From the NCBI GenBank assembly GCA_017881905.1, contig JADGQI010000057.1, positions 1-41,003 of the forward strand: DNA of 41,003 nucleotides. The letters are read 5' to 3'. Position 1 is the first letter of the stretch. The number at the start of each line of letters is the position of its first letter. Under the pieces are notes generated by a model. It worked only from the letters and a program-made list of their open reading frames with translations. It had not been told where the DNA came from and did no database searches. Shown piece after piece: positions 30,791 to 37,474 of this stretch. The translations under genes and the position numbers were made by a program. The DNA is from Chloroflexota bacterium. Lineage in GTDB: Bacteria > Chloroflexota > Limnocylindria > Limnocylindrales > CSP1-4.

Positions 30791-30949
30791 CCGGTCGGGG
30801 CGTCCGGACCGAAAGGACCGGTCGGGTACGGGGTTCCGGGCGGGTTCCGTCGGGTGTATGGTTCGGTCAGCGACCGCCCTCACCGGTCGATGGTGCAGGA
30901 CCGGACGGCGGCCTCGTCAGCGCCCTCGGGCGACGGAGGATCCTCGACG

Positions 30950-31225
30950 ATGCACAGCTCCCTCATCGGCAAGGTCGAGAAGGCGAATCGCTACGCTCGC
31001 GAGCTGGATCGGATCACGATCGATCGCCTCAGCCTCACGTTCCGCGGTGACAACGACACCCATCACGTGAGCCTCGACGCCGGTAGCTGGCGCTGCACCT
31101 GCCACTACTTCGACAGCTGGGATTCGTGCGTCCATCTCCTCGCGCTCCAGAAGATCTTCGGCGTGATGCTGCCCGAGGAGGCGCAGGTCTCGATCTTCAG
31201 CGCGCGCGAACCGGTCACCGCCTGA
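30950..31225 (+). CDS. Small stand-alone SWIM zinc-finger protein (91 aa)
   Basis: SLDAGSWRCTCHYFDSWDSCVHLLALQKIFG (CxCx(n)CxH); ATG after ggagga. Confidence 0.8.
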   Translation: MHSSLIGKVEKANRYARELDRITIDRLSLTFRGDNDTHHVSLDAGSWRCTCHYFDSWDSCVHLLALQKIFGVMLPEEAQVSIFSAREPVTA

Positions 31226-31265: not shown

Positions 31266-32378
31266 TCACGGCAGCCAGGCGACCACCGCGCGATCCGCAC
31301 CGGCCGCCAGCGGGATGGACCGTCCCTGGCGCCAGCGATCCGCCCGGTCGTGGATGGTCAAGCCGACCGACGCACCGTCGGCGTCCGTCCGGACCATCCC
31401 GACCCGCTCGCCGTCGGGCGCCAGGGCGAGCCAGGCGAACGAGCGTGATCCGTCGAGGCCCGGCTCCAGCCCGACCGGGGCCGGCGTGGCCGACGGCGGG
31501 TCAGTCGCGGCATCCGTCACCCACCGTTGCGTAGGTCCGACGACGACCCGGCCATCCCGCGACCCGACGGCGACGGTCCGTCCATCGGCCGCGATCGACA
31601 GTCCGGCGATGGGCGCAGGAGGGTCGCCGGAGGCCCGCTCTATGCGGGCGACGCGGCCCGGCGCGGCCGGGTCGATGAGGAATGCCTGGACCGCGTCGCC
31701 GGAGGTCCGGGCGAGGACGACGATCCGGCCATCGAGCCATGACGGCGGCGCGCCCTCCGCGCCAAGATCGACCCGGGTCACCAGCGGACGGGCCGTCGAC
31801 GGTGGCACGGGCAGGATGACCACGTCGAACGGACCACCGCTGTCGTAGTCGGCCGCCAGGAACGCCGCCCGGGACCCGTCGGGCGACAGTGTCCCGAACG
31901 TGAGCGGGCCGGCCAGGGTTCGACGGTCCGGTCCGGGAGCCGTCCGTCGCCAGGCAGGGTCCGCGTCGTCGTCGAGCGGTCCGGAGACGTAGGCTCGGCC
32001 GTCCAGGGTCGTCACGAGCGCGCGACCGTCGAGACTCGTCGAGATCCAGGCGACACCGGGCACCGGCGACGGGATCGACCGCCGCTCACCGGCGCCGTCG
32101 ACGACCTCGAGTCGCATCGTCCCGGTCCGGCCCGACAGGAGCAGCAGTCGTCCCGGCTGGTCACCGCCCCCCGGAGAGGGCGCACTCGACGGTTCGCTCG
32201 AGGATGCCTCGGCTCGGGTCTCCGCCGTCGGTGACGGCGCCGACCCCGGCGGTGACCCGACGACCGTCCGACCCGGGACCGGCGGTGCAGGACCGCAGCC
32301 GGTGCCGATCGCCATCGCGATGAGCGTGACGGCGATCGGCCCGAGTCTTCGTCCCTGGGAGCGCCACGACGACCTCAT
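31266..32378 (-). CDS. Lipoprotein with TolB/WD40-like beta-propeller repeats
   Basis: MRSSWRSQGRRLGPIAVTLIAMAIGTGCGP lipobox; repeated LSPDGSRAAFLA, SIAADGRTVAVGS, LAPDGERVGMVR motifs. Confidence 0.75.
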   Translation of the reverse strand: MRSSWRSQGRRLGPIAVTLIAMAIGTGCGPAPPVPGRTVVGSPPGSAPSPTAETRAEASSSEPSSAPSPGGGDQPGRLLLLSGRTGTMRLEVVDGAGERRSIPSPVPGVAWISTSLDGRALVTTLDGRAYVSGPLDDDADPAWRRTAPGPDRRTLAGPLTFGTLSPDGSRAAFLAADYDSGGPFDVVILPVPPSTARPLVTRVDLGAEGAPPSWLDGRIVVLARTSGDAVQAFLIDPAAPGRVARIERASGDPPAPIAGLSIAADGRTVAVGSRDGRVVVGPTQRWVTDAATDPPSATPAPVGLEPGLDGSRSFAWLALAPDGERVGMVRTDADGASVGLTIHDRADRWRQGRSIPLAAGADRAVVAWLP

Positions 32379-33304
32379 CGCAGGACGTCACCGCCGAGCA
32401 GCGAACCGTCGCCGGCGTCGATCCAGATCTCGAGGCCGCGAAGGGAGGCGGCCAACGTCCCGGTCGACCGGACGGTCACGACCCAGGCGAGGCGGCGGAT
32501 CTCCGCGGGTGCATCGGGCCGCGCCGGCTCGAAGGTGTCGTTCGGGGCGACCCAGGCGAGGGACGACGACGAGATCCGGGCTTCGGACCGGTGCTTCGCC
32601 GGGATCCACCGGTCGAGGAGGGTCGTGGCGGCCGCTTCCGCCCGCCCACTCGCGAGCGTCGCGCCCGGTGCCGCCGCGAGGCCGTGCTCCGAGACCGCCA
32701 GCCCGTGGAACGTGCCATCGGCCCAGAGCTGGACCCGAACGCCGTCGCCCGGGACGGGGATTCCGGCGACGACCCGATCCCAGCGGACGTTCCAGCCGTT
32801 CACGCCGCGGCCCTCGGCGACGGGTCGGCCATGGGGCACGATCCCGACCGATCGGGCCAGGTGGTCGGCGGCCCGGATCGCGTTCGCCGACCCATCGAGC
32901 GGCCGACCCACGGCGCCCGGCCAGCCCAGGCGACTGGCGGCGATCAATCGCCCGCCGACGTCGTAGCGCAGGACCTCGACGGGTCGCCCGCGCGGATCGA
33001 GGCCGGTCACCTCGTCGAAGGTCCGATGGACGCGTCGATCGACGATCCGGTCGACCGTCCGTCGTGCCACCGCGACCGATCCGAGGACATGCTCGTCGGC
33101 GGCCGCCCGATCAGCGATCGAGGCCGCCCGCGCGTCCGTCAGCCGGCTGACCCTCGTCGCGTCACCACCGGCGACGTAGGGGTCGCTCGCGTCGGCCGGG
33201 CGGGCCAGTCCGGTCACGAGTAGGCCGATCGCGGCGAAAAGAAGGAGGATCGCCGCCGACCGGCGTCCGAGGCGCAGGAACGAGGGGTGGAGGAGCTGAG
33301 GCAT
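32375..33304 (-). CDS. Exported protein with PepSY/FTP (YcdB-like) type domains
   Basis: TM/signal RRSAAILLLFAAIGLLVTGLARPADA; GWNVRWDRVVAGIPVPGDGVRVQLWADGTFHGLAVSEHG and LEIWIDAGDGSLLGGDVLR. Overlaps the downstream gene by 4 nt. Confidence 0.65.
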   Translation of the reverse strand: MPQLLHPSFLRLGRRSAAILLLFAAIGLLVTGLARPADASDPYVAGGDATRVSRLTDARAASIADRAAADEHVLGSVAVARRTVDRIVDRRVHRTFDEVTGLDPRGRPVEVLRYDVGGRLIAASRLGWPGAVGRPLDGSANAIRAADHLARSVGIVPHGRPVAEGRGVNGWNVRWDRVVAGIPVPGDGVRVQLWADGTFHGLAVSEHGLAAAPGATLASGRAEAAATTLLDRWIPAKHRSEARISSSSLAWVAPNDTFEPARPDAPAEIRRLAWVVTVRSTGTLAASLRGLEIWIDAGDGSLLGGDVLR

Positions 33305-33314
33305 GTCGACACTC

Positions 33315-34094
33315 CTAGACGCACGACGGGCAGGTGCCGACCGGGCCAGCCCGGCCGGACCAGATGTAGCTGCCCCACCAGTCCGCGTCGAACGAGCTGT
33401 GGGTGAAGTCCTCGAGCATCGCCAGCTCGAACGCCGGTCCGACCCCCTTGCCCCGCTTGAGGGCGTCCCAGAACGTGACCTCGAACGTCTCCTCGTCGTT
33501 GTCGTACGTCTCGCCGACGTAGCCGAGGAAGAACTTCGGTCCGTTCCAATCGAGCTCGCCCGCCTTGGACTTCGCGATCCCGAACGCGCCGGGCATCGTC
33601 GTGTTGGGGTCGCCGTTGCTGCAGGTCGAGATGACGACGAGGTTCGTCTGCCGGCCGTTGCGCTTGTCCTTGATGTCCTTCGAGTACACGATCGACTGGT
33701 CGCAGTCCCCGGAGTCCTCGCGGAAGCCGGAGTAGCGGCGCTGGTCGCCCGCATGCCAGTAGTAGTCGCCGTGGGAGTGGACGTAGTAGGCCCAGTCGCC
33801 GATCGTCCGGCTCAGGACATGAGCGCGGGTGAACGCCGCACCCTTGTATGCCTTGACGTCGTAGCCGAGTGCCTTCATCCCCGCCGTGGCCAGGGTCAGC
33901 ATCCGCTCGGGATGCGGGTCGTCCCAGCCGATGCACGGCGGCTCGAAGGCGGATTCGTTCGAATCCGCCGTTCCCTGGTAGGCGGCCGCGACCGGATGCG
34001 GACCGGCCGCCGCGACGGTCACGAGCACGGTGGCGATGCCGAGGAGCGGCGGGACCCATGACCTCCACCGTCTTCGCCTGGTTCGTCCGTCCAC
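33315..34094 (-). CDS. Exported caspase/gingipain-like (clan CD) putative cysteine protease
   Basis: GTG at 34094 after GGAGGAGG; signal peptide RRRRWRSWVPPLLGIATVLVTVAAAGPHPVAA; DWAYYVHSHGDYYWHAG (His) and QTNLVVISTCSNGDP (Cys), then KFFLGYVGET...FWDALKRGKGVGPAFELAM. Confidence 0.6.
   Translation of the reverse strand: MDGRTRRRRWRSWVPPLLGIATVLVTVAAAGPHPVAAAYQGTADSNESAFEPPCIGWDDPHPERMLTLATAGMKALGYDVKAYKGAAFTRAHVLSRTIGDWAYYVHSHGDYYWHAGDQRRYSGFREDSGDCDQSIVYSKDIKDKRNGRQTNLVVISTCSNGDPNTTMPGAFGIAKSKAGELDWNGPKFFLGYVGETYDNDEETFEVTFWDALKRGKGVGPAFELAMLEDFTHSSFDADWWGSYIWSGRAGPVGTCPSCV
33948..33969. repeat. Perfect 10-bp inverted repeat with 2-nt centre inside the clan-CD protease gene
   Basis: GGCGGATTCG-TT-CGAATCCGCC read directly. 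Confidence 0.9.
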
Positions 34095-34168
34095 GATCTG
34101 GACCTCCTCCGGCGGGGTGGGGCTGGTGGCGGGAGGAGGGCGAGGGAGGGAGTCTCGCAGCGGGCGCT

Positions 34169-34198
34169 CACCAGCGACGTATCGCGTGATCACCAGCG
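34169..34198. repeat. Pair of 9-bp direct repeats TCACCAGCG spaced 21 bp in a divergent intergenic region
   Basis: TCACCAGCG at 34169-34177 and 34190-34198. Confidence 0.85.
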
Positions 34199-34282: not shown

Positions 34283-34440
34283 GGCGGGTCAACCGCATAC
34301 GCCAGACCGCTGGGTCGCGAAGCCGGTGAGATCCCGGCACAGTCCCGCTACGGTGGTCGCGGCGTCTCGGGCATCCGTGCCCGGGCCGACCGCGCGAGTC
34401 CGGTCGCCGGCCCAGGGGTCCATGCTCCACCTTCGAGAGA
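34283..34440 (+). promoter_or_regulatory. Cobalamin riboswitch
   Basis: gcgaagccggtgagatcccggcacagtcccgctacggt matches the B12-box/core; followed by gcgcgagtccgg and a btuFCD operon. Boundaries approximate. Confidence 0.9.
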
Positions 34441-34455
34441 AAGGGTAGGCATCCC

Positions 34456-35583
34456 GTGACCCCGACCTCCACCCCTCGACCGCCCGGCGAGGGGTTTGGT
34501 ATGCCCGGCGCAGCCCGGACGAACCGGCGCATCGCGACCGTCCTGTTCGGCGCGGCGTTCCTGCTGAGCGCCTGTACCGGCGGCTCGTCCGCGACCCCCG
34601 TCTCGATCCCGCCCGATGCGACTGCGTCGGCGATCCCGCCCGCGGCCGGCACGCCGAAGCCGGCCACGCCCAGCCAGACACCGGTCGCCGCGGCGACCTT
34701 CCCGTTGACCCTGACCGACGACGAGGGCACCGCCGTCGTCCTCAAGGCAGCCCCCCAGAAGATCGTCTCGCTCACGCCGGCGACGACCGAGATCCTGTAC
34801 GCGATCGGCGCCGGCGACCGGACCGTCGGCAAGGTCGAGGACTTCACCCCCTACCCGCCCGAGGCCGACAAGCTGCCGATCGTGGCGAAGTTCGGGTCGG
34901 TCGACGTCGAGCAGATCGTCAGTCTTGGCGCCGACCTGGTCATCGCCGGAGGCAACGGCTTCAACCCGCCCGAGGCGATCACCCAGCTGCGCACGGCGGG
35001 CATCCCCGTCGTCGTCACCTACGCCACCGACGTCGAGGGCGTGCTCAAGGACATCGAGCTGGTCGGCGATGCGGTCGGCGAGGGACCCGCGGCGCGCGAT
35101 CTCACCGCGTCGATGCAGGCCGGCCTCGACCGGGTCGCCGCCGCGACGAAGGGCCTGCCGGCGCCGAAGACGTTCTATGAGCTTGATGCGACCAAGGAGA
35201 TCTATGGCCCCGCCAAGGACTCGTTCATCGCCCAGATGATCGGCCTCGCCGGGGGGACCCCGATCACGACCGAAGACCCGGCCGTCTTCGCGATCCCGCT
35301 CGAGAAGCTCGTGGCGGCGGATCCGGAGATCATCGTCCTCGGCGACGCCGTGGGTGGGACGACCCCCGCCATCGTCGCCGGGCGGGCGGGCTGGGACACG
35401 ATGACGGCGGTGAAGGACGGCGCGATCCGCCCGGCCGACGACACCGTCATCAGTCGCCCGGGCCCGCGACTGGTCCAGGGCCTCCAAGCGCTGGCGGTCG
35501 CCATCCACCCCGAGCTCGCCGCCATGTTCCCCCAGCCGACCCCGACGGCGTCGCCGGCCGCCTCCGGCTCGGCGGCGCCCTGA
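34456..35583 (+). CDS. btuF: Cobalamin ABC transporter substrate-binding lipoprotein (BtuF-like)
   Basis: Lipobox LLSACTGG; KIVSLTPATTEILYAIGAGDRTVG...LGADLVIAGG; downstream of B12 riboswitch. Alternative ATG at 34501. Confidence 0.88.
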   Translation: MTPTSTPRPPGEGFGMPGAARTNRRIATVLFGAAFLLSACTGGSSATPVSIPPDATASAIPPAAGTPKPATPSQTPVAAATFPLTLTDDEGTAVVLKAAPQKIVSLTPATTEILYAIGAGDRTVGKVEDFTPYPPEADKLPIVAKFGSVDVEQIVSLGADLVIAGGNGFNPPEAITQLRTAGIPVVVTYATDVEGVLKDIELVGDAVGEGPAARDLTASMQAGLDRVAAATKGLPAPKTFYELDATKEIYGPAKDSFIAQMIGLAGGTPITTEDPAVFAIPLEKLVAADPEIIVLGDAVGGTTPAIVAGRAGWDTMTAVKDGAIRPADDTVISRPGPRLVQGLQALAVAIHPELAAMFPQPTPTASPAASGSAAP

Positions 35584-35588
35584 CCGCG

Positions 35589-36671
35589 GTGGCGACCCGG
35601 ACGGAGGTCCTCGGCGCACCACTGGCCCGGACGGGCCCGCTCGAGCGCGTCCGCTCGCGCCCGGCGATCCTCCTGGGCGGGAGCGTCGTCGCGCTGTTCG
35701 TCGTACTCATCCTCGGGGTGGCGCTGGGGAGTGTGGCCGTCGCCCCGGCGGACACCGTCGCGATCCTCGCCCACCGCCTGCTCGGGCTCGACCTCGGCGC
35801 GACGTGGACGCCCGCCGCCGAGACGATCGTGATGGATCTGCGACTCCCTCGGGTGCTCGCGGCGATGGTCGTCGGGCTCGGCCTGGCCGTCGCCGGCGTG
35901 ACGTTCCAGGGGATCCTGCGCAACCCGCTGGCGGACCCGTACGTGCTCGGGACCGCGTCGGGTGCGGCGCTCGGTGCCGCGATCGCTGTGCTCATCCCGA
36001 TCCGGATCGCGCTGCTCGGGTTCGGGCTGGTCCAGGTCCTGGCGTTCGTCGGGGCGTTGCTGGCGGTGACGGTCGTCTACCGCTTCAGCCGGACCGGGAC
36101 GCTGGCTCCGCTCACCAGCCTGCTGCTGACCGGCTACGCGGTCGGGTCGCTCCTGGCGGCCGGCCTGGCGATGACGATGTACCTGTCGGGCACGAACCTG
36201 CGCCAGATCTTCTACTACCTGCTCGGTGGGTTCGAGGGAACGTCGTGGTCGCAGGTCCTGCTCACTGCGCCGATCATCCTCCTCGCCACGATCGCGATCC
36301 TGGCTCGGGCCCGGTCGCTCAACGGGTTCCTCCTCGGCGAGGAGACCGCCGCCCATCTTGGCGTCGACGTCCGTCGTGAGCGGGCGATCCTGCTCGGCCT
36401 GGCCAGCTTGATCACCGCGGCGGCGGTCTCGATCAGCGGGCTGATCGGCTTCGTCGGACTGGTCGTGCCGCACGTCGTCCGGCTCGTGGTCGGGCCGAAC
36501 GCGCGCTGGGTCCTGCCGCTGTCGGCGATCATCGGGGCGAGCCTGCTGGCCGCCGCCGACCTCGTCGCGCGACTCGCCGGCGGGATCCCGGTCGGCGTCG
36601 TCACCGCGATCATCGGGGCGCCGTTCTTCCTCGTCCTTCTCCGTCGGGCGCGGACCGGGTACGAGCTGTGA
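35589..36671 (+). CDS. btuC: FecCD-family ABC permease (BtuC-like)
   Basis: RLPRVLAAMVVGLGLAVAGVTFQGILRNPLADPYVLGTASGAALGA...GLIGFVGLVVPHVVRLVVGP. Confidence 0.93.
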   Translation: MATRTEVLGAPLARTGPLERVRSRPAILLGGSVVALFVVLILGVALGSVAVAPADTVAILAHRLLGLDLGATWTPAAETIVMDLRLPRVLAAMVVGLGLAVAGVTFQGILRNPLADPYVLGTASGAALGAAIAVLIPIRIALLGFGLVQVLAFVGALLAVTVVYRFSRTGTLAPLTSLLLTGYAVGSLLAAGLAMTMYLSGTNLRQIFYYLLGGFEGTSWSQVLLTAPIILLATIAILARARSLNGFLLGEETAAHLGVDVRRERAILLGLASLITAAAVSISGLIGFVGLVVPHVVRLVVGPNARWVLPLSAIIGASLLAAADLVARLAGGIPVGVVTAIIGAPFFLVLLRRARTGYEL

Positions 36672-37474
36672 GCGCCGTCGACACACCGGTGGTCGAGCTC
36701 GTCGGAGTCGACGCCGCTTATCGCGAGCGGGTCGTCCTGAGCGGGATCGACCTGTCGATCGCGCCCGGCGAGCGAGTCGCGATCGTCGGGCCGAACGGAG
36801 CCGGCAAGTCGAGCCTGCTGCGGGTGGTCACCGGGACGCTCCGGCCCAGCGCGGGACGGGTGACCCTCGACGGCGATCCCGTCGAGCGGCTCGACCGGAT
36901 GGCGATCGCCCGGCGGCTGGCCGTCGTCCCGCAGGCGGGGGCGCTGCCGTTCGCCGCCCGGGTCGAGGAGGTCGTCGGGCTCGGTCGTCTCGCTCACGAG
37001 GATCCGTTCCGTGGTCACCGGCCGGCAGACCGGGCAGCGATCGCAGCCGCGATCGAGCGCGTCGGCGTCGGCGGGTTGCTCGGCCGCGATGCGCGCGAGC
37101 TCTCCCTCGGCGAGCGTCAGCTGGTGCTCCTGGCGATGGCGGTCGCCCAGGCGGCTCCCGTCCTCGTCCTCGACGAGCCGACCGTCCACCTCGACCTCCG
37201 CCACCAGGTCGAGACGATGGACCTGCTGGTGGACCTGAACCGGCGCGACGGTACGACGATCGTGGCCGTCCTCCACGACCTCGGCCTGGCGGCGCATTTC
37301 TTCCCGCGTCTCGTCCTCATGGCGCACGGGCGGATCGTCGCCGACGGCGCCCCGGACAACGTCCTGGTCGACGACCGGATCCGCGAGGTGTTCGGCGTCG
37401 ATCCAGCCTTCGTCCGGCGGTCGGGCGGCCAGACGGGCGTCTCCGCGATCGACGGGGTGCCCGCGTCGCGTTGA
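36668..37474 (+). CDS. btuD: ABC transporter ATP-binding protein (BtuD-like)
   Basis: GPNGAGKSSLLRVVTG, ELSLGERQLVLLAMAVAQ, LVLDEPTVHLDLRHQ; overlaps the permease stop. Confidence 0.93.
   Translation: MSAVDTPVVELVGVDAAYRERVVLSGIDLSIAPGERVAIVGPNGAGKSSLLRVVTGTLRPSAGRVTLDGDPVERLDRMAIARRLAVVPQAGALPFAARVEEVVGLGRLAHEDPFRGHRPADRAAIAAAIERVGVGGLLGRDARELSLGERQLVLLAMAVAQAAPVLVLDEPTVHLDLRHQVETMDLLVDLNRRDGTTIVAVLHDLGLAAHFFPRLVLMAHGRIVADGAPDNVLVDDRIREVFGVDPAFVRRSGGQTGVSAIDGVPASR

Follow-up and report, generated by a model that had tools for sequence, protein, structure and literature searches.

What does a bacterium of the phylum Chloroflexota gain from an exported protein of predicted caspase fold that is encoded with two further exported proteins, and when is this set made? 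The question is raised by a window of 41,003 nucleotides (the whole stretch of DNA that was analysed), which contains three translationally coupled genes on its minus strand (31266-34094), all with export signals. Gene 1 (33315-34094; 259 aa, GTG start) encodes an exported putative cysteine protease of the clan CD type, gene 2 (32375-33304; 309 aa) an exported protein with three tandem PepSY-like alpha-beta repeats that is a putative chaperone or inhibitor for gene 1, and gene 3 (31266-32378; 370 aa) a propeller-like lipoprotein. Genes 1 and 2 are separated by 10 nt and have plain N-terminal signal sequences as read by eye, and genes 2 and 3 overlap by 4 nt (ATGA), so that the coordinates and spacing given in the earlier note stand. 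A mechanically called longer frame for gene 1, reaching to 34193, is rejected in favour of the start at 34094, because relatives have a CCGCCGGAGGAGGT site equally far from their starts; in the window the ribosome-binding site, GGAGGAGG, lies at 34103-34110 (minus strand) upstream of the GTG.

The gene 1 product has a signal peptide of residues ~1-38 and a mature part of ~220 residues. It is without an N-terminal prodomain, since the first core strand is the start of the mature protein. The sequence marks of clan CD are a His-Gly and a Cys, and specificity in this clan is typically P1-driven (PMC12445089). The segments VHSHGD and LVVISTCSNGD, which the earlier note had placed at these positions, are both present, and in an alignment of 22 homologues (the others being 32-58% identical to the window protein) S107, H108, G109, S156 and C158 are invariant, as are C54, C131 and D127; D110 is kept in 21 of the 22, the exception (L034) having HSHGA in place of HSHGD. 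An AlphaFold model made from these 22 sequences (pLDDT 87) has its strands and helices in the order of a caspase fold. In this model the putative catalytic His108 of the S-H-G-D motif (codon 33771-33773, minus strand), together with G109, comes directly after strand 102-106, and the putative catalytic Cys158 of the S-T-C motif (codon 33621-33623, minus strand) directly after strand 152-156, which are the strand ends expected for clan CD. Foldseek ranks SAVED-CHAT best (2.1e-6), followed by caspase-1 (2.6e-5), procaspase-8 (6e-5), DdvA (7e-5) and MALT1 (1e-3), with TM values of 0.4-0.5 in the fold comparison. The proposed clan CD fold is thus borne out by structure prediction. Membership in peptidase C25, on the other hand, is not supported: the C25 model gives 13.5 bits where the cut-off is 23, with a weak match spanning the part from the His to the C-terminus, and the nearest fold is that of SAVED-CHAT and then of caspases. 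Weak matches are found in 3 of the 22 homologues to C25 (best E 0.005) and in 3 of the 22, the window protein not among them, to CHAT (PF12770; best E 0.0028). None of the curated family models is matched above threshold by gene 1, and PDB sequence profiles contain no relative of gene 1 or gene 2. Gene 1 represents a new family, restricted to this lineage, whose predicted fold is that of caspases.

The AlphaFold model of gene 2 (pLDDT 86) consists of three tandem repeats, each with a single helix and a roughly four-stranded sheet. Its first Foldseek match is the C-terminal domain of YpeB (6e-8), and the propeptides of vibriolysin (2.6e-4) and fungalysin (3e-3) follow, in agreement with the PepSY/FTP-like character first proposed for it. 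By sequence, most of the 19 gene 2 homologues tried reach no PepSY or FTP model; the FTP model is reached by 2 of the 19 (best E 0.0062), and the window protein reaches none. SleB requires YpeB, which is believed to keep it inactive until YpeB itself is degraded (PMC13393411). Of precedents in which an enzyme has a separate PepSY protein as its partner, SleB-YpeB is the nearest. By this analogy gene 2 would control gene 1.

Gene 3 was earlier called a propeller lipoprotein, and some of its relatives point the same way: PD40 is matched by 2 of 11 homologues (best 2e-5; the window copy has no match), and the lipobox-like Cys, imperfect in the window copy (IGTG-C), is often in a canonical context in relatives (LVG-C, VLAG-C, VTA-C). 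The window genome has another copy of gene 3 (G000:C169). The idea that it marks a second cassette is rejected; assembly contamination is likelier, because a second SWIM fragment, 78% identical, adjoins it. The fragment and the second cassette site lie at G000:C169:1-3334 (L289).

Gene 1 is present in 27 of 61 related genomes, mostly at 34-61% identity and with open frames. Of the 61 genomes, 28 have gene 1 or gene 2, and 26 of these have both; in each of the other two the single gene lies at a contig end. Wherever one contig holds both, gene 2 adjoins gene 1 (Fisher p 6e-15, relatedness ignored), and gene 3 adjoins gene 2 in most genomes of the window's family. Because gene 1 recurs in these 27 genomes with gene 2 adjacent and gene 3 mostly adjacent, the operon is not a chance arrangement, and the neighbourhood predicted to be conserved among relatives is so. 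As a unit, the trio stands in part: genes 1 and 2 form a constant core, whereas gene 3 is missing from some family members and from the freshwater sister family (no copy adjoins gene 2 there or at L048 and L050), and it also occurs in a different cassette described below. In a survey of the phylum, gene 1 was found in 18 of 400 genomes, and all 18 belong either to the window's family or to a single sister family within its order. An alignment-based scan of genome contigs gave 38 loci, nearly all labelled Chloroflexota, and a scan with the single sequence gave no match. Named homologous contigs are of Chloroflexota, including Candidatus Limnocylindrales and Candidatus Aquidulcis, and one has Thermoflexus in its title; the hosts of the cassette are uncultured Chloroflexota of soil and freshwater. 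At one locus (L054, G032:C21) an additional copy of gene 1 is interrupted by an in-frame stop and is apparently a paralogue in decay.

The promoter and the exchange of cassettes at the locus tell more of function than the proteins do, and neither the comEA-type promoter nor the exchange with a matrixin-like cassette was part of the first reading. The family consensus 5' of gene 1 is GATAAG-N5-GATAAG-N10-TAnnnT, an 11-bp direct repeat with a -10 element. In the window this promoter (34146-34183, minus strand) is made of GATACG (34183-34178) and GGTGAG (34172-34167) at 11-bp spacing and a -10-like GAGACT (34156-34151). A matrix of 38 positions was derived from 29 gene 1 promoters, with zero comEA sequences in training. 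The window site has a leave-one-out score of 25.3, compared with 4.6 for the runner-up on both strands of the whole 41-kb window, and all scores of at least 12 in a further 13 cassette loci, 385,228 positions in all, are gene 1 promoters. Of the 25 comEA genes of the family, 23 have an upstream match of at least 15 with this matrix; among 50 control windows, 1 does (Fisher 6e-16, relatedness ignored). In both of the two loci examined, comEC comes after comEA, and the gene 1 operon has the promoter type of comEA-comEC. In the window genome (2.58 Mb, 77.8% complete) ComEA and ComEC were not detected, and DprA is present. The motif has diverged in the freshwater sister family, where the matrix scan gave no match before comEA.

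A census of the 61 genomes with the exact pattern yields ~100 sites, against about a dozen with the reversed pattern, and the gene next downstream is comEA in many genomes. Sites also precede genes for SSB, YraN/UPF0102 and a phosphoribosyltransferase that looks like ComFC. Most genomes have 0-5 exact sites, and one (G027) has 23. The regulon may be wider than competence, since genomes rich in exact sites also have them before unrelated genes, among them XRE-type ones, the latter chiefly in G027. The XRE-type regulator genes with the GATAAG direct-repeat promoter are many in this genome (L159, L160, L161, L163, L232) and often have an uncharacterised C-terminal region. Across the family, the 11-bp direct-repeat signature marks comEA (L164, L176, L178, L184, L186, L191, L194 and others). 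The conserved DNA upstream of gene 1 was also considered as one long 5' leader; this is rejected, as part of it is a divergent cobalamin riboswitch and the remainder is the promoter.

The cassette site is bounded on one side by a small SWIM-like zinc-finger gene (30854-31225, plus strand), which serves as a marker in relatives and has CxC...CxH by eye and no Pfam match. On the other side is a B12-type ABC transporter (34456-37474, plus strand) composed of a binding protein (34456-35583), a permease (35589-36671) and an ATPase (36668-37474), with matches to Pfam Peripla_BP_2, FecCD and ABC_tran. The cobalamin riboswitch of this divergent operon (34292-34452, plus strand; RF01482, 39.3 bits, below gathering) lies outside the cassette; it is degenerate in the window and has a same-place counterpart above the Rfam gathering threshold in several relatives. 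The interval from the transporter to the SWIM gene was surveyed with the latter as anchor. It contains cassette A, namely genes 1 and 2 and mostly gene 3, in 12 genomes including the window. In 18 genomes it contains cassette B, which was found via gene 3 relatives in genomes lacking gene 1 and consists of an exported propeller, a matrixin-like protein, a small lipoprotein and gene 3. Among the 33 other family genomes with the anchor, 11 have A, 18 have B, 4 have neither or are unreadable, and none has both (Fisher 7e-6 for mutual exclusion, relatedness ignored). The interval is empty in G025, apparently in G023, and in the outgroups G056, G057 and G059. On a tree of the flanking transporter proteins the A/B label requires 7 changes, and at least 3 per label are forced by well-supported branches. 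Where the sequence upstream is long enough (16 loci), cassette B is also preceded by a comEA-type promoter in 13. Since unrelated exported cassettes swap behind a comEA-type promoter, cassettes A and B are best understood as alternative solutions to a single extracellular task connected with DNA uptake. It is not certain that the matrixin-like protein is a protease, because the canonical HExxH is found in few genomes: the motif is HExxHxxxxxH in those few and DExxHxxxxxHH in most. The latter is an unusual zinc-site variant for matrixin-like exported proteins (L288, L294, L297, L308 and others).

The operon is probably a competence-co-regulated cassette for an exported putative cysteine protease with a PepSY chaperone or inhibitor. 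Gene 1 would be a cysteine protease of the caspase/CHAT fold that is exported and lacks a prodomain. Gene 2 most likely folds with gene 1, anchors it and keeps it inactive in trans, on the model of YpeB with SleB and of PepSY/FTP propeptides with thermolysin-type proteases, and gene 3 most likely tethers the pair or presents a substrate at the outer face of the membrane. As the promoter type is that of comEA-comEC, the operon is most likely expressed as cells make ready to take up DNA. Gene 1 would then cut surface or DNA-bound proteins. These might be the cell's own envelope proteins, whose cleavage would allow the uptake machine to work, or proteins of neighbours or of extracellular DNA, whose cleavage would make DNA available. 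Several findings weigh against this reading: ComEA and ComEC went undetected in the window genome (which is incomplete and does have DprA), exact sites also stand before unrelated genes, the motif has diverged in the freshwater family, most matrixin-like proteins have DExxH, and most gene 2 homologues match no PepSY or FTP model. The analysis suggests that natural competence in these Chloroflexota involves secreted proteases. It is also possible, as a more tentative proposal, that competence here includes a chromosomal site reserved for exported protease cassettes that can replace one another, either caspase-fold with a trans-acting triple-PepSY inhibitor or matrixin-like, both under the comEA promoter and both serving to obtain DNA at the cell surface.

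Other readings explain part of these data. It might be that comEA is just one target of a response regulator whose regulon broadly covers envelope or nutrient genes, and the operon would then encode a general envelope or stress protease with no specific part in DNA uptake. The 11-bp direct repeats beside the -10 element would fit a regulator of the OmpR/PhoB type, and the genes behind the exact-pattern sites are diverse, with 23 sites in G027; this reading is nevertheless doubtful, given that the site precedes comEA in 23 of 25 family genomes and that exact sites number just 0-5 in most genomes. Fratricide proteins are known in competence (PMC7992943), and by analogy with the streptococcal effectors made at that time, gene 1 might lyse or damage neighbours to free their DNA, with gene 2, together with gene 3, conferring immunity on the producer. 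An exported effector with an exported partner under a comEA-type promoter would suit such killing, and the repeated swapping of unrelated exported cassettes at one locus is expected too of effectors under diversifying selection. Lone immunity genes are not seen, however, gene 2 without gene 1 occurring solely at a contig end, and gene 1 is well conserved between genera and not hypervariable, which makes killing unlikely.

The caspase fold also serves non-digestive roles, since DdvA, one of the Foldseek matches, is an anti-sigma factor. Gene 1 might similarly be a binding or signalling domain without protease activity and gene 2 its structural partner, and the homologue with HSHGA would accord with this; the invariance of His, Gly and Cys in 22 of 22 homologues makes it quite improbable. 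Immediately upstream, in both the family and the sister family, the cobalamin riboswitch and BtuFCD-type genes might even point to a function in vitamin B12 uptake. The riboswitch, however, points away from gene 1, the transporter adjoins the SWIM gene without any cassette in outgroups and in G025, and in one genome (G002) the cassette is on a different contig from the SWIM gene with no transporter alongside. From the outgroup gene order the B12 link is rejected as positional, and a B12 function is very improbable. A defence-system reading is unsupported, because PADLOC and NCBIfam searches gave nothing meaningful.

As a putative competence-linked protease cassette, the operon resembles several known systems in part. 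Gene 1 is similar to CHAT and caspase (C14) proteins of clan CD in fold, in strand order and in having His-Gly and Cys ~50 residues apart, although it is an exported single domain with no prodomain or fused sensor and reaches no curated model. Members of peptidase C25, the gingipain family, are likewise exported and give a weak profile match, but gene 1 stays below the curated cut-off and, with its mature part of ~220 residues, has neither an N-terminal propeptide nor further domains. The SleB-YpeB pair of Bacillus spores also combines an exported hydrolase with a PepSY-repeat partner, YpeB being the best fold match of gene 2; SleB, however, is a peptidoglycan hydrolase of sporulation, while a caspase-fold putative protease with a competence-type promoter is found here. 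The repeat fold of gene 2 is common to the FTP-PepSY propeptides of thermolysin- and fungalysin-type enzymes, which are covalent parts of a metalloprotease precursor, whereas gene 2 is a separate gene beside a cysteine-protease fold. Streptococcal fratricide regulons contain exported hydrolase-like proteins together with DNA-uptake genes, an association suggested here by the promoter, although promoter and organisms differ. The streptococcal effectors are mostly murein hydrolases.

If the protease reading is true, exported caspase-fold proteases join the known contents of competence regulons, and the operon exemplifies a PepSY protein that has a gene of its own next to that of a caspase-fold protease. 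The function is testable in two independent versions, because unrelated cassettes repeatedly swap behind one promoter. A literature search found no work on competence control in this bacterial group, and the promoter signature would predict DNA-uptake genes in what is a large uncultured group. Behind the same promoter type, one locus (L266:222-2000) encodes a secreted protein with a lamin-tail (LTD) domain and OB-fold regions, a possible surface DNA-binding protein.
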